From positions 83,526 to 139,507 of the forward strand of contig NZ_JAHKPW010000043.1 of NCBI RefSeq assembly GCF_018860755.1: a stretch of 55,982 nt of DNA. The letters run 5' to 3'. Both the position numbers and the translations under genes were made by a program. The first letter of the stretch is position 1; every line of letters begins with the position of its first letter. The stretch is from Colwellia sp. D2M02 (GTDB taxonomy: Bacteria > Pseudomonadota > Gammaproteobacteria > Enterobacterales > Alteromonadaceae). Shown here piece by piece: positions 17,514 to 32,256 of this stretch. Below the pieces are notes generated by a model. The model was not told where the DNA came from. It made no database searches and was given only the letters and a program-made list of their open reading frames with translations.

Positions 17514-18342
17514 TTACCCTACAATCAGTGAGGTAATGACTTGAGGATTATTGTGTAAAGTCCTATGAACTGGGCAGCGACCAGCAACTTCCATTAGTCG
17601 TGCTTTTTCTGAGTCGTTCATTACTCCAAATAGCTGAACCTTACGGAGTAATGATTCCATTTACAAACCTTGCTGCTCAGCACTGCTGGCATCTTCCAAA
17701 TAATTACGTTGGTGTGATAAAGAGACTTCCACACGCTCAAGTGGAATGTTTTTATGATCAGCGTACATTCGAATTGTCATCGCGGTGCAAGTGCCTAGAG
17801 CAGCTAGTAAATGCTCGTAGGGATCGGGGCCTGAGTTTTTTCCGCCTACTTGTACGGGCTCATCGGCATAACAATGATGATGAGCACTAAAAATTTCCTG
17901 CTGAAATTTATGATCAAGCTCAGCCACCACTACATGCCCTTTAGCTAGGTTAATCGTCGATGTTTTAGCCGTTGGAATATAGTGACTATCGCTTTCACCT
18001 TGAGAAGTTGTGCTGCCATCGCTAGTACCGCAGCCCCGCCAAGGCTATGGCCAATGAGTAATTGCGACGCTTCATAATGTGCTGCCAGTAAATCTTCGGT
18101 ATTGGATAAAAAATTAGTGTTGGCAAAATCGCCATCACTATTGCCTAGACCGGTAAAATCAAATCGAAAAACGGCAAAACCATGCTGCACCAGAAATCGG
18201 CTAATGCGCGAGGCTGCTGCAACATCTTTACCACAGGTAAAGCAATGAGCAAATAACACATAAGCTTGCACTTTACTGTCAGGCGTTTCAAGTAATCCTG
18301 CTAGTATTTGTCCTTGACTAGAAAACTCTACTTTGCTCTCAT
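17514..18342 (-). pseudogene. Decayed alpha/beta-hydrolase-OsmC fusion gene
   Basis: On the minus strand an ATG at 18342 with AGGAG 9 nt before it is followed after four codons by TAG. One frame over, from codon 2, the hydrolase reads on without a stop ([19 protein letters not shown], then [13 protein letters not shown] and the nucleophile elbow IGHSLGG), so one base was probably lost. The hydrolase ends abruptly after KVKAIVTI near 17980; its C-terminal half is missing. The next frame carries an OsmC domain (YADEPVQVGGKNSGPDPYEH, LLAALGTCTAMTIRMYADHK), interrupted by an in-frame TAA near 17661. It then resumes in the same frame to NDSEKARLMEVAGRCPVHRT and a stop at 17514. Intact relatives are ~400-residue bifunctional proteins. 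It is the last gene of the bufferin operon, 43 nt after the DsbA-like gene. Confidence 0.88.
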
Positions 18343-18385
18343 TGCTTTAATCTCCTATTTCTATTAAACCTTTTAATTTCAAATA

Positions 18386-18963
18386 CTAATCAAGCAACAA
18401 TGGCTCGATAACGGCCTGCCAATCAGCAAAGGTTGACTTGTGATCAACCGGTACTTTATTAGCATTATTGATAAATAGAGTTGGTGTAGCCCAACCCCCC
18501 TTGGTGGCGGCATAACGAATGGGTGTTCGCGCTTGTTCATAAATATCACTGTCGGCCATTCTCTTTAGAAATGTTTCACGCTCTTGGCCTGAATGCTGCT
18601 GAGCAAAACTCGCAACAAGCTGTAATAGATCGGCATGTGTTTTATCGAGAAAACGACCATTGTAAAATTGTGATTGCCGCTCAAAAATAAATATCGTGAA
18701 ATCATAAAATTTATCGGCATCTCCCTCTGCAAAGGCGAAGAGAGCTAAACTCATATCCCAAACTTGTCTATGATTACTCAACGTTATTAAGTGCCCCTTA
18801 AACTGACAGATTTATTTTTATAGTAGTTTGCAACCTCAAGCAAGGTTGGCCAAATTTTTCGTGAATGCGGACATTGAATATCAATGAAGGCATCAATGGT
18901 TATTTGAACTGCTGCGTCACCAAGTAAAAAGCCGCTTGGGCGATGTGGAATTGGTATCGTCAT
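18386..18963 (-). pseudogene. Frameshifted DsbA-like thioredoxin-fold gene with CPHS site
   Basis: The full gene would start at the ATG at 18963 (GAGGAAA ribosome site), 12 nt after the DoxX stop. The first 53 codons read MTIPIPHRPSGFLLGDA then IDAFIDIQCPHSRKIWP. At about 18805 one base is missing: the frame meets TAA 5 codons later, while the next frame continues QFKGHLITLSNHRQVWDMS through ATKGGWATPTLFINN to the stop at 18386. The total of 578 nt is one short of a whole number of codons, and restoring a base gives 192 residues. The active site is CPHS (Cys31, Ser34), one cysteine short of the DsbA CPHC, so the ancestor would be a monothiol protein. A fragment could still be translated from an internal start, but it lacks the active site. 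Confidence 0.85.
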
Positions 18964-18975
18964 CTTATATTTCCT

Positions 18976-19449
18976 CTACTTTACCTTCGCATTGAATAAC
19001 TTTTCTTCTGCTAAGCGATCCAAGGCAAAGCGTCCGCCACTAAAAATAACCACTTGTAATAAAAGTGTTCCCCAAAGAACATGCTCTGCAAAGGCTGCCG
19101 CGGCAATATCTTCTAAACTAATCACCGCCACGATATTGACAAAAAATAACCCTAAGGCAGAAAATCGACTAGCTATGCCCGCCATTAATAACAAGGGCAA
19201 TATGATTTCTGCGGCGGTGCCTAAATAAGCGGCTAATTCAAAAGGTAATATTGGTACTTGATATTCATATTCAAAAAGCATCAAGGTGCTGTCCCAGTCT
19301 CTAAGCTTAGTTAGCCCAGAAGCGAAAAATGCCCAGCCAACATAGAAGCGAGCAGCTAATAAAGCTACCGGCTCTAATAGGCTAATTTTGCTGGAAATTG
19401 CAATATAAAGCTGACTAATAGGTATCAGGCGTTGTTTTAAAGTATTCAT
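18976..19449 (-). CDS. DoxX family membrane protein (bufferin operon)
   Basis: 157 residues with about four membrane helices: LLAARFYVGWAFFASGLTK, ELAAYLGTAAEIILPLLLMA, SALGLFFVNIVAVISL and LWGTLLLQVVIFSGG. The motif FFASGLTKLRDWDSTLMLF is typical of DoxX. DoxX proteins are the usual fourth member of DUF2282-DUF692-DUF2063 operons (GigT/BufD position). They are thought to act in membrane redox or metal-related steps, but the mechanism is unproven. The start is 2 nt after the bufC stop, with AAAGAGA as ribosome site. Confidence 0.9.
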   Translation of the reverse strand: MNTLKQRLIPISQLYIAISSKISLLEPVALLAARFYVGWAFFASGLTKLRDWDSTLMLFEYEYQVPILPFELAAYLGTAAEIILPLLLMAGIASRFSALGLFFVNIVAVISLEDIAAAAFAEHVLWGTLLLQVVIFSGGRFALDRLAEEKLFNAKVK

Positions 19450-19451
19450 AA

Positions 19452-20252
19452 TTAATTCTCTTTAAAGGTGTAAATTAAATTTCGTTCGATGGCTTTCATT
19501 AGCCAGTTTTCAAATGAAAAATGCTTGCTCTCACTTACCAGATTGAGCGCATTAGCCAGTGACTGACCTGAGATTAAACAGCGCATAAACACATCTTCAC
19601 CAGCCATTAGTAGTGTTGTTACTTTTGGCTGAAATTCAGGCCGATAAATCATCACGGTTTGCTCTTTCGGCGCTATAGCCAGAGCTTTTTGTGCATTATT
19701 CATTGAGATTGTTCGTTGCTGCTCATCAACATCATGATGTGCTTGAAAAATGTCGGTAAGCGGATACTTAGTTTCAAGCAATTTCACGTTATGATTGAAC
19801 TTGACAAAGATGTGCTCAGGCTCGCAATTTCCCAGTAATTGCAATGACGATTGCTGAAAAATTTGATCGATACCATGCAGTGCACAATGAACATGCCAAT
19901 CTAACGCAGCACAATCTGCAAGATAGGGATATTCATAACCAACATCTGTGGTTTCGATAAAGCTTGCCAATGCTGCTCCCCATTGAGCCCAATCACCCTG
20001 TGTTGGAGGTGATGATTTCAAAAACTGTTGAGTAATATGCTCACTGGCATCACTATCAAGTAATTCAAAAACAGTGGGAAAACTGATGCTTAAAGCTCGC
20101 TGTGCATTAGCCAACAAGTTGCGTCGATAGATGTAAATGCCCTCAACATCAAAGCCACTTTCAGCAATAGTCTTGGGATCATCACTCCAAATAGCCTCTA
20201 ACAAACACTGTTGCTCGTTTATCACTGACTCACTCTCACATTGAGTATTCAT
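19452..20252 (-). CDS. bufC: DUF2063 partner protein of the MNIO enzyme (BufC/HvfC)
   Basis: 266 residues. The N-terminal DUF2063 domain shows GIYIYRRNLLANAQRALSIS, FPTVFELLDSDA and GDWAQWGAALASFI, then PYLADCAALDWHVHCALHG. The C-terminal half is a second domain that probably binds the peptide. DUF2063 proteins are the RiPP-recognition partners that bring the precursor to the DUF692 enzyme. The gene overlaps bufB by 4 nt (ATGA), which indicates translational coupling. Nothing appears truncated. Confidence 0.92.
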   Translation of the reverse strand: MNTQCESESVINEQQCLLEAIWSDDPKTIAESGFDVEGIYIYRRNLLANAQRALSISFPTVFELLDSDASEHITQQFLKSSPPTQGDWAQWGAALASFIETTDVGYEYPYLADCAALDWHVHCALHGIDQIFQQSSLQLLGNCEPEHIFVKFNHNVKLLETKYPLTDIFQAHHDVDEQQRTISMNNAQKALAIAPKEQTVMIYRPEFQPKVTTLLMAGEDVFMRCLISGQSLANALNLVSESKHFSFENWLMKAIERNLIYTFKEN

Positions 20253-21121
20253 GCTGATTCCTTATGTAAAACAGCCTGCGCAATATCACGTGCTTTACGC
20301 GCTTCATCAACCAATACAGACCATTGAGGTAAATCGTTATCCCATTCAATCAAGGTAGGTACAGCGCCAAATCGCTCTATAGCTAATTGATATCCTTGCC
20401 AAACTTCATCAGAAACGGGTCGAGCATGATCATCAATCACTAACTGCCCCAAGGTTGGCATTTGGCAACCAGCAAGATGAATTTGTGCAACCCTTTCCAC
20501 GGGTAAGACATTGATATAATCGGCGACAGATTGTTGAATGTTTCCCTCTTCAAAGTTCAAGCTATTAACAGCAATATTGTTAATATCTAACAATATTTTT
20601 GCCCCCGTGCGCTGACAAATCTCAGTTAAAAATTCTGCTTCAGATAAATAACTGCCATCAAATTTCACATAGGCAGAAACATTTTCAATGATCAGCTCTC
20701 TGCCTAAAAACGATTGCACCTTATCGACTTGTTCACACATACGCGCTAAATTTAAGTGGGTATGGGCAATAGGTAATAAATCTCCACTATGCATGGTTTG
20801 TCCATGTTGCTTACCCCAGGTAAAGCAGGCATGTTCAGACATCAAAAATGGGTCAATTGTTTGCGTTAAGCTTTTTAAGCGCTCTAAATATGCCATTGGA
20901 ATGTCATGCATAGAGCCAAGCCCCATTGAAGTTGAGTGCAAACTGACAAGATATTTTTCTCTTACTTGGCTAAGCACAGATAATGCCGCGCCCCCTTGAC
21001 CGAAAAAATTTTCAGAATGCACTTCAACAAAGTCAACTTGCTTAGGCGTGGTTAATATGTCAGTAAAATGCGGATGTCTTAAGCCAACGCCCACTAATAG
21101 CTTTTTGTTATTTACCAACAT
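20249..21121 (-). CDS. bufB: MNIO (DUF692) peptide-modifying enzyme BufB/HvfB
   Basis: 290 residues from the ATG at 21121. An AGGAG lies 7 nt before this codon but directly against the alternative ATG at 21127, so 21121 is preferred. It is a TIM-barrel multinuclear non-heme iron oxygenase. Visible motifs are GVGLRHPHF (11-19), VDFVEVHSENFF (29-40), His62 in SLHSTSMGLGS, His97 in SEHACF, Glu146 in IIENVSAYV, Asp179 in LLDINN, His215 in IHLAGC, His232 in DDHARPVSDEVW, and Glu259 in LIEWDND. Family members convert precursor cysteines to heterocycles such as thiooxazoles. The position usually occupied by the second His of HLAGH is Cys219 here. It is coupled to bufC and lies 10 nt after bufA. Confidence 0.93.
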   Translation of the reverse strand: MLVNNKKLLVGVGLRHPHFTDILTTPKQVDFVEVHSENFFGQGGAALSVLSQVREKYLVSLHSTSMGLGSMHDIPMAYLERLKSLTQTIDPFLMSEHACFTWGKQHGQTMHSGDLLPIAHTHLNLARMCEQVDKVQSFLGRELIIENVSAYVKFDGSYLSEAEFLTEICQRTGAKILLDINNIAVNSLNFEEGNIQQSVADYINVLPVERVAQIHLAGCQMPTLGQLVIDDHARPVSDEVWQGYQLAIERFGAVPTLIEWDNDLPQWSVLVDEARKARDIAQAVLHKESA

Positions 21122-21131
21122 ATTCATTCTC

Positions 21132-21416
21132 CTACGCTTTTTTTGTTGCTTTATATAATTTCTTGGCTTCTTTTTTAGACAACCCACCAAGGGTCGAACA
21201 GGTACCTTTTTTTACTAGTTTCCATTCACCTTTGTCGTTGTCGACTTTTGATTGCCCTGCACATGAGTGTGTTCCTGCTAAGTTTGCACAATCATTTTGG
21301 GCCGCTTTTGCTACGCCGTAACATTTTTCTTTCTTGCCACCGGCTTCTGCCGGTGCAACTACGCCGGTAGAAATCACGGCCGCTAATGCCGCGCTAACTA
21401 ATAATTTATTATTCAT
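21132..21416 (-). CDS. bufA: Bufferin precursor peptide, DUF2282 (BufA/HvfA/GigP type)
   Basis: 94 residues. The signal peptide is cleaved after about Ala25 (VVAPAEA before GGK). The mature part has four cysteines, Cys32, Cys43, Cys52 and Cys73, in the DUF2282 pattern (KCYGVAKAAQNDC, GTHSCAGQSKVDNDKGEW, KKGTC). In bufferins the enzyme modifies cysteines, and the exported product sequesters copper in the periplasm. The last 16 residues (LSKKEAKKLYKATKKA) are a lysine-rich helix. The ribosome site GAGAGGA precedes ATG. Whether all four cysteines are modified cannot be told from sequence. Confidence 0.93.
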   Translation of the reverse strand: MNNKLLVSAALAAVISTGVVAPAEAGGKKEKCYGVAKAAQNDCANLAGTHSCAGQSKVDNDKGEWKLVKKGTCSTLGGLSKKEAKKLYKATKKA

Positions 21417-21447
21417 AATAAATCCTCTCGTTGGGTAAAGTGAGCAA

Positions 21448-21762
21448 CTAGGTATGTTGCTCTAACCATTGCATTAATTGTTGTGGCGGTAATCTGCCAA
21501 CACGTTGATCAATGATTTCATTATGTTTAACTAACATCATTGTTGGCACACTACGTATGCCATAATCAGCAGCTACTGTTGAAGCACTATCAATATCGAT
21601 TTTGATGGTATTAAATCGGTCACTCATCATGCTGGCTATATCCTCAACTATTGGCGACATTGATTTACAAGGCCCACACCACGAGGCACTAAAGTAAAGT
21701 AATGAATATTCATGTTGTGATAACAGATCTTCAATAGCATTGGCAGATGTTAGTTGTTTCAT
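21448..21762 (-). CDS. Thioredoxin-like protein of the bufferin operon
   Basis: 104 residues, a single thioredoxin domain. The active site is SASWCGPCKSM (about residues 26-36), with the cis-proline in RSVPTMMLV. There is no signal peptide, so it is cytoplasmic. It lies 29 nt after the YHS gene and 31 nt before bufA. Thioredoxin is not a standard member of the minimal bufferin operon. It could keep the precursor cysteines reduced before modification (inference). It differs from the second thioredoxin at 24687, which has WCAPC. Confidence 0.9.
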   Translation of the reverse strand: MKQLTSANAIEDLLSQHEYSLLYFSASWCGPCKSMSPIVEDIASMMSDRFNTIKIDIDSASTVAADYGIRSVPTMMLVKHNEIIDQRVGRLPPQQLMQWLEQHT

Positions 21763-21791
21763 AATTAAAATCTCACTTAAATGGTTAACTA

Positions 21792-22277
21792 TTATTCGTA
21801 CACTTTTTCGATTTGCGCTTCAGTTAAGCCCTTAATATCAACCCACTTAACTTGTGCAGTTTCTATATAACTAGGAATGTCAGTTGCCCATTTCTTTTGC
21901 ACGTCTTTGTTTAGGTTCAGATATAATTTGTCGCCACGGATATGCCATGCTGTTGGGTCAGTATCAAATTTTCTATTCATAGTAACACCGAAGGCACAGT
22001 AACCACCGTATTGAGGTGCATATTTACTTGGTTCAGATTGAAATAAGTCACGGTTTGCAGCACTTGAAAATTGGTAAATGGCGCCATTGTATGCCGCAGT
22101 ATATTTATCAGAACCTTTAGTAGGTGCGCCTTTAGTGAAATAAGAAACTGTGTCGTAACCTTTTAGTGCCAAGTCATTAGCACTGGCATTAACTTCAATG
22201 TTGGCTGCGAAGCTTAAGCTGCTTACCAATAATGCCGAGGTAGCGAATGTTGTTTTAACAAATGATGAAAGTCTCAT
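21792..22277 (-). CDS. Periplasmic YHS-domain protein
   Basis: 161 residues. The signal peptide ends about residue 24 (SSLSFAA before NIEV). A YHS-like domain follows: LALKGYDTVSYFTKGAPTKG, YQFSSAANRDLFQSEPSKYA and PQYGGYCAFGVTMNRKFDTD. The YGGYCA cysteine is the conserved metal-associated residue. YHS domains occur in heavy-metal and copper proteins. As first gene of the operon, exported, it could hand over or sense metal, which is inference. The ribosome site GGAGA precedes ATG. It is divergent from the AraC regulator over 148 nt. Confidence 0.88.
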   Translation of the reverse strand: MRLSSFVKTTFATSALLVSSLSFAANIEVNASANDLALKGYDTVSYFTKGAPTKGSDKYTAAYNGAIYQFSSAANRDLFQSEPSKYAPQYGGYCAFGVTMNRKFDTDPTAWHIRGDKLYLNLNKDVQKKWATDIPSYIETAQVKWVDIKGLTEAQIEKVYE

Positions 22278-22318
22278 TTTTTTCTCCAGTATGTAATGTT
22301 CAAAGTTTAATAATTAAT

Positions 22319-22382
22319 AAGGATGTCGTCCTTGGTTGATAATATAGGGCTTTCAATTAGCCAAAAGGAATGACATAGTCCT
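22319..22382. promoter_or_regulatory. Repeated dyad elements between the YHS gene and araC-type gene
   Basis: AAGGA-TGTCG-TCCTT is a 5+5 palindrome at 22319-22333. A similar element AAGGA-(8 nt)-GTCCT occurs at 22365-22382, 46 bp further on. The two share AAGGA(A)TG(T/A)C, so they may be tandem operators for the AraC-type regulator. The half-sites are short, so this is tentative. Confidence 0.3.
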
Positions 22383-22425
22383 AACATTGAACCCGATCGT
22401 CCAAAGTAGACAAAATGAGAAGAAC

Positions 22426-23247
22426 ATGGATCAACTTTCAGTAATCTTGCAGCGCTTTTCGATGAATACCGAAGTTTTCTTCACTGGTAATTTATGTGGG
22501 ATCAGTAATTTCAATAGAGAGCCCAACCAAGGACACTTGCATTTATTACGCAGTGGCGCGCTAACCATTATTGACGAGAAAGGAACGTCTCAATTAATTG
22601 ATGAGCCGACAGTACTGTTTTTTCCAACGCCTCATGCGCACCGGATTATTGGCAGTGAAGAAAATCCGCCTGAATTGGTATGTGCCAACATTCTTTATGA
22701 CGAAAGCAGCTCTAACCCTATTGCCAATGCACTGCCGTCACTACTGTGTTTTAAACTCAGTGATTGTCAAAAGCTTAAGCAAACCGCGCTATGTTTATTT
22801 GAAGAGGCATTTCAAGAGCAATGCGGACGAATTCCAATGATTAATTTACTTACCGATATGTTTCTTATTCATGTGCTTCGTCATGTGCTCAATAACAATA
22901 TCATGCATTATGGACTGCTCGCTGGCTTAGCTCACCCTCAACTGTCTAAAGTACTACTTGCTATTCATGAAGCGCCTGAGCAGCAATGGGGATTAGAGAC
23001 TATGACCGAACTTGCCTTAATGTCACGCTCTAAATTTGCCGAGCTTTTTAAACGTGTTGTTGGCCAAAGTCCTGGTGATTATTTGATTGATTGGCGTATT
23101 GCTGTCGCAAAAATCTTATTAAAACAAAACAAACCTGTTGCGCTAGTTGCCAATGCTGTTGGTTATGAAAATGGCTCAGCTTTAGCGCGAGTGTTTAGGA
23201 AGAAGCTAGGAATGGCTCCGAAAGAATGGTTAGATAAGATGATCTAA
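22426..23247 (+). CDS. AraC family transcriptional regulator
   Basis: 273 residues from the ATG at 22426, which has a GAGAAG ribosome site; an upstream in-frame TTG at 22387 is less likely. Residues 1-170 are a cupin-type AraC ligand domain (GHLHLLRSGALTIIDEKG, TVLFFPTPHAHRI). The C-terminal 100 residues hold two helix-turn-helix units: WGLETMTELALMSRSKFAEL, then the linker GQSPGDYLIDWRI and VALVANAVGYENGSALARVF. It is divergent from the bufferin operon and is the obvious candidate regulator. Bufferin operons are more often described under ECF sigma factors, so an AraC partner is notable. The inducer is unknown. Confidence 0.9.
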   Translation: MDQLSVILQRFSMNTEVFFTGNLCGISNFNREPNQGHLHLLRSGALTIIDEKGTSQLIDEPTVLFFPTPHAHRIIGSEENPPELVCANILYDESSSNPIANALPSLLCFKLSDCQKLKQTALCLFEEAFQEQCGRIPMINLLTDMFLIHVLRHVLNNNIMHYGLLAGLAHPQLSKVLLAIHEAPEQQWGLETMTELALMSRSKFAELFKRVVGQSPGDYLIDWRIAVAKILLKQNKPVALVANAVGYENGSALARVFRKKLGMAPKEWLDKMI

Positions 23248-24686: not shown

Positions 24687-25013
24687 ATGACAACACTAAG
24701 CAAAGTTAATGAGATATCAGCAGAGCAATTTCAGCAAGAAGTAGAGCAACACCAAGGAAAGGTATTGGTCGATTTTTATGCCCCTTGGTGTGCACCTTGT
24801 AAAATGCTTGCGCCCGTGGTTGAGCAAATTGCTCAAGAGCATCAACAACTGAAAGTTATTAAAATTAATGCCGATAATAGCCAAGAGTTGATGACAAAAT
24901 TTGGCATTAGGGGCATTCCAACGTTGCTATTAATGGAACAAGGGCAACTGCTTTCAACCAATGTTGGCGCGGCATCTGTTACACAAGTAAAAAAGTTTAT
25001 CGGTTTGCATTAA
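24687..25013 (+). CDS. Thioredoxin
   Basis: 108 residues, the length of TrxA. The active site is DFYAPWCAPCKMLAP (about residues 28-42), with cis-Pro in RGIPTLLLM and glycine-containing strands near the C-terminus. The WCAPC site is a common natural variant of WCGPC. There is no signal peptide, so it is a cytoplasmic disulfide reductase. It lies between the divergent LysR gene and nnrS, which is 107 nt downstream in the same direction, so the two may be co-transcribed. Confidence 0.93.
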   Translation: MTTLSKVNEISAEQFQQEVEQHQGKVLVDFYAPWCAPCKMLAPVVEQIAQEHQQLKVIKINADNSQELMTKFGIRGIPTLLLMEQGQLLSTNVGAASVTQVKKFIGLH

Positions 25014-25120
25014 TAAACGGATATTAGGCTCCCCTTCATTAGCACTTTTATTGATCTGTACTAAGGATTATATTAATCGCTGTAATACAATAACGACAAA
25101 GTGCTAACGAAGGCATAACT

Positions 25121-26323
25121 ATGATGCAAATAACTGACTTAAAAGAAGAACAAAAAACTCCCCCACTCTTACGCTTAGGTTTCAGACCTTTTTTTCTTAG
25201 TGGTGCTATTTTCGGTGTTTTTGCGATACTGCTTTGGGTATTAATGTACCGTGGTGTAATTAGTTTATCGCCCTTAGGTGGTGGGTACTGGTGGCATATA
25301 CATGAAATGATTTTTGGTTTTGGCTGCGCTATTGTTGCAGGTTTTTTGCTCACAGCCGTGCAAAATTGGACAGGCATGCGTGGCGTACAAGGAACAACGC
25401 TATTATTACTTTTTTTATTATGGCTAGCTGGCCGTATCGCGTTATTAACACCTGAAATTTTTGGTAATATATTAGTAACGATCCTTGATTTAAGCTTTTT
25501 ACCTGCTGTAGCTTATGTACTCGCCAAGCCTATTTTAGCGATAAAACAGTACCGAAATTTGTTTTTTGTTCCCCTATTAACCCTATTTACCTTAGCCAAC
25601 TTAGAAATGCATCTTGCAGTCTATAACCATAGTTTTAGCATTATTTATTCAGCTTACGCGGGGCTAATGCTAATGACCTTTTTAATGTCTGTTATGGCGG
25701 GTCGGGTCGCCCCTATGTTTACCGCTAACGGCACTAAAACCACCAAAGTAACGCCAATCGCTTGGTTAGATATTGCCGCTAATGGCAGTTTAGCCGTTTT
25801 AATGATTAGCTTATTGCTTGAGCCTGTTGTTGGTTTCTCTGCAACATTTTTTGGTGCACTCTTAATTATTGCAGGTTGTTTTCAAACTTTACGTTGGCTG
25901 AGATGGCGTCCTTGGATAACATTACAAGTGCCACTGTTATGGTCTTTACATGCTTCAATGAAGTTTATTAGTGTTGGTTTAATCCTACTAGGCATTGCTT
26001 ATTTAATACCAACGGTACCCACTAACCATATTTGGCACCTACTTACCGTGGGTGGCATGGGTGGCTTAATTTTAGCGATGATTTCACGAGTATCACTAGG
26101 TCATACTGGACGTAACTTAGTTCCCCCTAAAACGATGACTATTGCTTATATTGCTATATCTCTCGCCGCAGTAGTTCGAGCTTTTGGTCCGTGGTTTATG
26201 CCTGAAAAAACCATGATGTTTATCGATATTAGCGCAACCTTGTGGATGCTAGCGTTTATTATTTTTATCGCGTTCTATGGTCCAATGTTAATGACTGCCC
26301 GTAAAGATGGTAGACCTGGCTAG
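25121..26323 (+). CDS. nnrS: NnrS family membrane protein
   Basis: 400 residues, almost entirely membrane helices (about 12). The family signature starts at residue 18 with LRLGFRPFFLSGA. It continues with GGYWWHIHEMIFGFGCAIVA, whose histidines are conserved, and later WHLLTVGGMGGLILAMISR. NnrS is a heme/copper membrane protein linked to nitric-oxide resistance; it protects metabolism against NO and nitrosothiols. GAAGG 7 nt before ATG is the ribosome site. The order LysR / thioredoxin-nnrS suggests a nitrosative or thiol-stress unit (inference). Confidence 0.93.
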   Translation: MMQITDLKEEQKTPPLLRLGFRPFFLSGAIFGVFAILLWVLMYRGVISLSPLGGGYWWHIHEMIFGFGCAIVAGFLLTAVQNWTGMRGVQGTTLLLLFLLWLAGRIALLTPEIFGNILVTILDLSFLPAVAYVLAKPILAIKQYRNLFFVPLLTLFTLANLEMHLAVYNHSFSIIYSAYAGLMLMTFLMSVMAGRVAPMFTANGTKTTKVTPIAWLDIAANGSLAVLMISLLLEPVVGFSATFFGALLIIAGCFQTLRWLRWRPWITLQVPLLWSLHASMKFISVGLILLGIAYLIPTVPTNHIWHLLTVGGMGGLILAMISRVSLGHTGRNLVPPKTMTIAYIAISLAAVVRAFGPWFMPEKTMMFIDISATLWMLAFIIFIAFYGPMLMTARKDGRPG

Positions 26324-31462: not shown

Positions 31463-32155
31463 TTACCCTGCTATTACTGGAAGTCGCCAATCAATAGTGG
31501 CTTGTCCTTGTGCTTGCAGCCAACTATTGGCTTTAGAGAAATGCTGACATCCAAAAAAACCACGATAAGAAGAAAGTGGAGACGGGTGCGGCCCCGTTAA
31601 TACTAAATGCTTACTTTCATCAATATTACGGCCTTTTTTCTTTGCATGCGCACCCCATAAAATAAAAACACAATGGGGATTTTCTTCACTAATCTTGTCA
31701 ATCACTGCATCGGTAAAGGTTTCCCAACCAAGTTTAGCATGTGAGTGCGCATTAGCTTGTTGCACGGTAAGCACCGTATTTAATAATAATACACCTTGCT
31801 CAGCCCAAGTAGTTAAACAGCCGTGTTCTGGCGCGATAAAGCCATCAATATCATTTGTTAACTCTTTATAAATATTAACTAAAGAAGGTGGGATTTTAAT
31901 GGTCGGTTGCACCGAAAAAGCTAAACCATGGGCTTGTGCAACACCCAATTGCTCACCGTGATAAGGGTCTTGCCCTAAAATAACCACGTTAATTTCTTTT
32001 AAATCTACCGCTTTAAAGGCATTAAAAATGTCATCATCTTTGGGGAAAATAGTAATACCCGCTGAGCGCTGTTGCTTTATTTCAGCTAATAAGGCTTCAA
32101 AGTAAGGTTTACGCTGCTCGCTATTAATGAGTTGTTGCCATTGTGGTTTAATCAT
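31463..32155 (-). CDS. ung: Uracil-DNA glycosylase
   Basis: 230 residues from the ATG at 32155. The frame stays open upstream to 32245, but that part is a translated tandem repeat and its first codon lies inside the thr terminator, so it is not used. Catalytic motif [11 protein letters not shown] (Asp63), [15 protein letters not shown], and the DNA-minor-groove loop [15 protein letters not shown] with its catalytic His are all present. The enzyme removes uracil from DNA in base-excision repair. AGGGA, 8 nt before ATG, is supplied by the first, altered repeat unit. Only about 75 nt separate it from the upstream thr terminator, so its promoter must lie in the repeats. Confidence 0.95.
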
Positions 32156-32159
32156 AAAG

Positions 32160-32219
32160 TTAATCCCTAAATTAATACCTAAGTTAATGCCTAAGTTAAT
32201 ACCTAAGTTAATACCAATA
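32160..32219. repeat. Five-copy 12-bp tandem repeat in the ung leader
   Basis: Units at 32160-32171, 32172-32183, 32184-32195, 32196-32207 and 32208-32219, consensus TTAATACCTAAG on the plus strand. The two middle matches are identical, one unit has A-to-G, and the outer two are diverged. On the minus strand each unit holds TTAGG and TATTAA, resembling ribosome-site and -10 elements. Being a multiple of 3, copy-number changes would not alter frame if translated. Confidence 0.92.
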
Positions 32220-32228
32220 TTGAAACAT

Positions 32229-32256
32229 AAAAAAACGCGAACCATGTCGCGTTTTT
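32229..32256 (-). terminator. Terminator of the thr operon
   Basis: A 10-bp stem (32231-32240 with 32247-32256), a 6-nt loop, and a T-run on the minus strand. It lies 74 nt past the thrC stop. Confidence 0.88.

Follow-up and report, generated by a model that had tools for sequence, protein, structure and literature searches.

The DNA window examined here, a stretch of 55,982 nucleotides from contig NZ_JAHKPW010000043.1 of the marine bacterium Colwellia sp. D2M02, carries a Buf1 bufferin operon next to a gene for an AraC-family regulator that resembles RclR. It seems probable, if by no means certain, that the operon has been recruited to an oxidant-switched unit of RclR-like regulator and YHS protein, under the RclR-like AraC protein as activator. 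The arrangement suggests oxidant stress, and not copper alone, as the trigger for making the bufferin peptide. Support at the level of sequence comes from the operon, the regulator family, two conserved cysteines, a conserved direct repeat ahead of yhs and, in what was sampled, the confinement of the arrangement to one BufB clade; every functional step beyond gene identity is what we infer from these.

Judged by its genes, the core of the run is an ordinary Buf1 bufferin (captophorin) cluster, and it is the setting that is unusual (Table 1). Six intact genes, coding for the YHS protein, a thioredoxin, BufA, BufB, BufC and a DoxX-family protein, follow each other with spacings of 29, 31, 4, -4 and 2 nt, and the AraC gene is divergent on the plus strand. 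Its open frame begins at TTG 22387, and relatives align from ATG 22426. The original prediction of an eight-gene run was right in order, strand and tight spacing, but the last two genes are not intact. Based on profile matches the family assignments are secure, with BufB only just over its NCBIfam cut-off. The YHS protein (PF04945) scored 154 bits with NF041384 (cut-off 70) and is the sole match to this model in the genome; BufA scored 84 bits with PF10048 (DUF2282), BufC 48 bits with PF09836 and DoxX 61 bits with PF07681, the latter two each above cut-off. BufB reached 310.4 bits with NF050167 (cut-off 310) and 295 bits with PF05114, and matched the MNIO structure 3bww; its closest named relative, at 92%, is from a Colwellia metagenome-assembled genome (L031). 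Four cysteines were present in the window BufA and in all 20 relatives displayed. At two loci (L087, L088) bufA is duplicated in tandem within the operon. The YHS protein has a single cysteine, residue 94, which was invariant in an alignment of 31 sequences including the window, and a search of the PDB returned no YHS relative at E below 0.6. Signal-like N-termini, judged by eye, were seen in YHS and BufA only and were absent from the thioredoxin and from the intact relatives of the two tail genes. The label 'periplasmic redox genes' given to the run is therefore inaccurate, and DoxX belongs to a membrane-protein family.

Table 1 Features of the bufferin locus, with positions in the window; HMM, hidden Markov model
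Feature	Position	Strand	Basis and remarks
AraC regulator, RclR-like (Cupin_6 + HTH_18)	22426..23247	+	HMM; redox-type Cys at residues 24 and 86, counted from ATG 22426
Predicted operator, direct repeat GGACgAT / GGACtAT, starts 21 bp apart, AraC-YHS intergenic	22372..22402	-	
YHS protein, NF041384 subfamily, signal-like N-terminus	21792..22277	-	HMM
Small thioredoxin, WCGPC, no signal-like N-terminus	21448..21762	-	HMM
BufA, Buf1 bufferin precursor, DUF2282, signal-like N-terminus, four conserved Cys	21132..21416	-	HMM
BufB, MNIO maturase	20249..21127	-	HMM; start set at ATG 21127
BufC, DUF2063 partner protein	19452..20252	-	HMM; 4-nt overlap with the end of BufB
DoxX-family membrane protein	18976..19449	-	HMM
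DsbA-like (Thioredoxin_4) gene, broken, split over two frames	18386..18963	-	Intact relative in L031
Hydrolase-OsmC fusion gene, broken (frame changes, internal deletion, in-frame TAA)	17514..18343	-	Intact relative in L031

The neighbourhood of BufB was compared at 64 loci, the window included (L037 was omitted as a duplicate of L031). Forty of the loci from the order, Enterobacterales, were hand-picked as likely relatives plus others, and the neighbour counts are therefore no census. Neighbours were counted at thresholds of at least 200 bits within 6 kb for AraC, at least 100 bits for YHS and at least 80 bits for thioredoxin. BufB scores fell into two groups, with at least 409 bits at 36 loci and at most 285 bits at 28. 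The high-scoring group had AraC at 34, YHS at 35 (L108, with a weak match only, was counted as lacking it) and thioredoxin at 24 of its 36 loci, against 0, 1 (L113) and 0 of the 28 low-scoring loci. The 36 loci form one side of a branch of the BufB tree with an SH-aLRT value of 99 and span six families of the order (f1, f2, f9, f11, f16 and f23). A search of 369 genomes of the whole class gave 493 and 465 bits for the two clade members, followed by a BufB at 326 bits. Neither AraC nor YHS was matched at the 20 BufB loci from outside the order (among the 24 best placed), where several contigs are short and far neighbours could be missed. BufA, BufC and DoxX were close by at most of these loci; for thioredoxin there were one clear case (L259, about 2 kb upstream) and two matches of 20 bits. 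Judged by this comparison of clade and non-clade neighbours, the association of AraC, YHS and thioredoxin with this BufB clade exceeds chance, and in what was sampled the AraC-YHS-bufferin arrangement appears to be restricted to this one clade. The counts bear out the earlier proposal that YHS and AraC are part of the unit, and thioredoxin less strictly so; of the genes expected to co-occur with BufABC in related genomes, YHS and thioredoxin did and OsmC hardly, a mixed outcome for the refuting condition set with the original prediction.

The best NCBIfam match of the window AraC protein is RclR. The protein combines a Cupin_6 sensor with an AraC helix-turn-helix domain (HTH_18), the two domains which we take to make up E. 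coli RclR as well. Counterparts of the redox cysteines Cys21 and Cys89 of E. coli RclR were found in all 34 regulators aligned with MAFFT (33 loci and the window, a set picked by similarity at 200 bits or more to the window AraC), the equivalence of Cys21 being gap-dependent. It is through these residues that E. coli RclR is activated by hypochlorous acid (HOCl) (PMC7464077). An alignment of 31 sequences, the window's among them, showed no variation at C24, H39, H72 or C86. A further set comprised 31 more distant RclR-like regulators, with E. coli left out of the count and L174 common to this and the similarity-chosen set. Both cysteines were retained in 30 of them, as were His39 and His72 each; in L226 (6223-7089), whose neighbours read as secreted hydrolases by eye, both cysteines and His39 are lost together. 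Six further AraC-like proteins encoded in this genome, each a weak match, have not kept the cysteine pair. The coupling to thiol status put forward in the original prediction is strengthened by this, since the regulator is RclR-like with both redox cysteines kept.

The locus was also viewed from the side of the regulator. Among 295 genomes of the order, 28 regulators scored at least 397 bits, and the neighbourhoods of all 28 were covered. YHS lay within 2 kb of 24 of them and at 5-6 kb from two more, and BufB lay within 5 kb of 22, once as a short open frame of 196 aa (L216). At L211 (7506-9307) YHS, thioredoxin, BufA and DoxX stand beside AraC without BufB and BufC, so that the precursor has no adjoining maturase; the same genome carries BufB and BufC at another locus (L102). 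L105 and L106 have tandem AraC genes by DoxX, with YHS more than 5 kb off and a second weak thioredoxin-like match after BufC, and represent a rearranged form of the unit. At 238-322 bits, 13 of 24 regulators were covered, with YHS beside five, CMD beside two and BufB beside none. Outside the order, the 17 regulators with at least 240 bits had CMD (AhpD-type) in eight cases, YHS in three, a cytochrome P460-like gene in three (one weak) and BufB in none. Three of the regulators with at most 157 bits were accompanied by CMD and, some kilobases off, a BufB of another clade (L180), by CMD (L181) and by YHS (L182). These counts point to YHS as a gene that recurs beside regulators of this type, and to the adjoining bufferin genes as an arrangement specific to one lineage.

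Most AraC-YHS intergenic regions carry TTTGGACGATTGGGTTCAA....GGACTATGTC or a near variant, with half-site starts 21 bp apart. Over 42 such regions the predicted site had a mean of 12.7 of 14 core positions compared to 7.95 in letter shuffles, a score that is partly circular because these regions had also supplied the consensus. At least 12 positions were present in 30 of the 42 regions and 10 or 11 in five others. The site is the single match in the window and the single exact match in the genome. One further site with 1 mismatch, at C5, was considered as a second operator and taken as chance, as the reversed control gave 11. By eye, the inner half-site is followed by a TATATT hexamer, at about the spacing expected between a -35 element and such a hexamer.

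Besides the circularity of the operator score, several observations weigh against an oxidant-switched bufferin operon. The RclR equivalog NF040475 gives 94 bits for the window AraC against a cut-off of 400, so by NCBI's rule the protein counts as RclR-like, not as RclR. The match to Cys21 needs a 3-residue gap, and the MAFFT alignment of the more distant regulators puts it 3 columns off. The cupin residues His39 and His72 are about as conserved as both cysteines and would fit a metal site too, which leaves room for a metal-bound sensor. Two of the 28 close regulators (G176, G225) have no YHS within 7 kb, and AraC is not divergent in L086. L213, L214 and L215 keep the AraC-YHS pair, including the operator-like repeat, without bufferin genes; bufferin is therefore not the regulator's essential target. 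Seven Colwellia loci reach only 10 of 14 positions, with the repeat spacing shifted. The E. coli rclA-rclR intergenic region lacks the site (9 and 8 of 14 on its two strands, near the shuffled level), and a consensus promoter scan lists no promoter at yhs.

The main rival to an oxidant switch is that AraC itself senses copper, with Cys24, His39, His72 and Cys86 as a cupin metal site and the operon as a plain response to copper excess. The invariance of the four residues, the two histidines kept in nearly all distant regulators and the joint loss of both cysteines and His39 in L226 agree with such a site, and bufferins improve the growth of Caulobacter under copper excess (PMC12452194). We nevertheless consider a copper sensor unlikely, as these residues are also found in regulators that have CMD peroxidase-like genes as their recognised neighbours, and HOCl or hypothiocyanous acid (HOSCN) is what the characterised RclR proteins respond to. 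Another possibility is that AraC governs yhs only and that the bufferin genes form an independent downstream unit with its own promoter. The isolated AraC-YHS pairs of L213-L215 would fit this, as would the AraC genes of L105 and L106 by DoxX and more than 5 kb from YHS, and the single conserved site that was sought and found lies upstream of yhs. The tight gaps of 29, 31 and 4 nt across yhs, trx, bufA and bufB and the retention of the arrangement in six families make this separation quite unlikely.

All loci with this arrangement belong to one clade in one order and hence are not independent. The gene order could then reflect shared descent and local transfer only, the YHS/RclR-like pair and the bufferin genes having no shared function. 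On the BufB tree, in which the tree program flags several long branches, the end branches of the more distant clade members amount to 0.4-1.05 changes per column, yet two changes suffice for the AraC label, against six for thioredoxin. Neutral neighbours would be expected to be shuffled over such distances, and descent alone appears highly improbable.

Under the preferred reading of an oxidant-switched operon, a thiol-reactive oxidant, such as hypochlorous, hypothiocyanous or a similar marine hypohalous acid, would oxidise the two cupin-domain cysteines of the regulator. The oxidised regulator would then turn on yhs-trx-bufABC-doxX from the direct repeat, the inner half of which borders the likely -35 region on its upstream side. 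BufB and BufC would convert two cysteines of BufA into copper-binding groups, and the modified peptide, exported to the periplasm, would hold copper freed when oxidants destroy copper sites. The YHS protein and the thioredoxin may act on the same damage, and the tail genes would be lineage-specific additions lately lost in this genome. In a broader and more tentative view, which we hold at somewhat less than even chances, the RclR-like regulator and a periplasmic YHS protein are an old gammaproteobacterial oxidant-response pair, into which one lineage wired a copper-binding peptide, made during the hypohalous-acid response against oxidant-released copper. The conserved Cys2His2 set of the regulator may even sense oxidant and metal together. 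An RclR-type regulator with a predicted site found a single time in the genome offers one directly testable answer to what induces bufferins and bears on what they are for beyond copper excess. The periplasmic YHS family, for which no solved relative was found in the PDB search, gains a regulatory context.

The Caulobacter buf and gig operons, both Buf1 clusters, resemble the window locus in the four-Cys DUF2282 precursor, the MNIO protein BufB, the DUF2063 protein BufC and DoxX, and by cluster membership Cys-derived thiooxazoles and copper binding would be expected here as in Buf1. The window locus differs from them in its RclR-like AraC, YHS, thioredoxin and lineage-specific tail. In the literature Buf1 is accompanied by genes for sigma factors and NrsF anti-sigma factors, with further conserved genes 'in extremely low proportions'; that survey took in unrelated genes only when within 10 bp (PMC12452194). 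Co-occurring 'transcriptional regulators' are reported in a supplementary table of PMC13097082. YHS, thioredoxin, AraC and OsmC are not mentioned in the main text of PMC12452194, PMC12538549 and PMC13097082, and none of the literature matches listed combined a bufferin term with RclR or 'YHS domain', most subscription papers being out of reach. A link of such clusters to hypochlorite has a forerunner: a study of Haemophilus influenzae RpoE2 and hypochlorite is among the references of PMC13097082.

Two characterised RclR systems offer a comparison. E. coli rclR-rclABC likewise has an AraC protein with two redox cysteines beside genes for a periplasmic and a membrane protein, and copper is a common theme through RclA, which reduces Cu(II) (PMC7464077). 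The authors of PMC7527725 infer that HOCl raises free copper in E. coli. No match to RclA, RclB, RclC or CMD was found within 7 kb of the window AraC, which thus has no target of the rclABC or rclX type beside it, and E. coli rclA for its part has no matching DNA site. DoxX was considered as an RclC homologue, and a shallow profile comparison gave no support. In Pseudomonas aeruginosa, likened here by neighbourhood and not by protein comparison, an RclR-type AraC adjoins its target, the AhpD-like rclX, which it induces with HOCl and HOSCN (PMC7950407). The eight CMD/AhpD-type neighbours among the 17 outside-order relatives of the window AraC recall this pair, whereas in the window YHS and the bufferin operon take the place of the AhpD-like enzyme.

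The two tail genes are damaged in the window. The DsbA-like gene occupies two frames; the hydrolase-OsmC gene has frame changes, an in-frame TAA in the OsmC part and a loss of about 350 bp from the hydrolase part, where the two aligned pieces overlap by 9 bp at their ends. L031 and L036 have intact copies of both, L032 and L049 of the DsbA-like gene; with unbroken genes in such close relatives, the decay looks recent. Compared with L031, the tail pieces had dN/dS values of 0.058-0.085, inside the range of the core genes (0.005-0.167); on these values long-standing neutral decay was rejected, leaving recent lesions or, less likely, assembly errors. The simplest account would be that selection maintained these genes until lately and that they were lost only recently. 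Second copies in this genome were sought and dismissed: the N-terminal part of the DsbA-like gene matched its own place only, and the OsmC model found one other place (C79), weakly, with 40 bits. The thiol-active tail had been thought a general part of the unit, and the counts contradict this. Across 14 loci (the window, 11 loci of the same genus and two Colwellia-titled records; at L038 the contig stops 0.8 kb beyond DoxX) the DsbA-like gene was present in five and hydrolase-OsmC in three, the broken copies of the window counted. Among 27 other loci of the order there was no DsbA-like gene and one hydrolase-OsmC-like gene above 100 bits, 4 kb away. The tail genes are probably lineage-specific additions.

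Rfam and tRNA scans gave no match in the window. A defence role was dismissed, as PADLOC matched none of the four proteins given (YHS, AraC, DoxX, BufC). The '(seleno)protein' models for YHS and OsmC raised the idea of selenoproteins, which was rejected since YHS has a cysteine and the OsmC stop is TAA, not TGA. RclR-like regulators also occur on plasmids: 115 plasmid records had an AraC match at E 1e-30 or better, and in three named ones (L233, L234, L235) a CMD peroxidase-like gene adjoins an RclR-like AraC (about 42% identical), with cytochrome P460 also nearby in L234. Beyond AraC in the window, at 24687-26323, a second thioredoxin gene followed by NnrS and preceded by a LysR gene on the other strand forms a separate small redox-type cluster. 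Farther on, at 32148-32230, a 12/24-bp tandem repeat lies inside a frame that reads as a gene of the uracil-DNA glycosylase superfamily.

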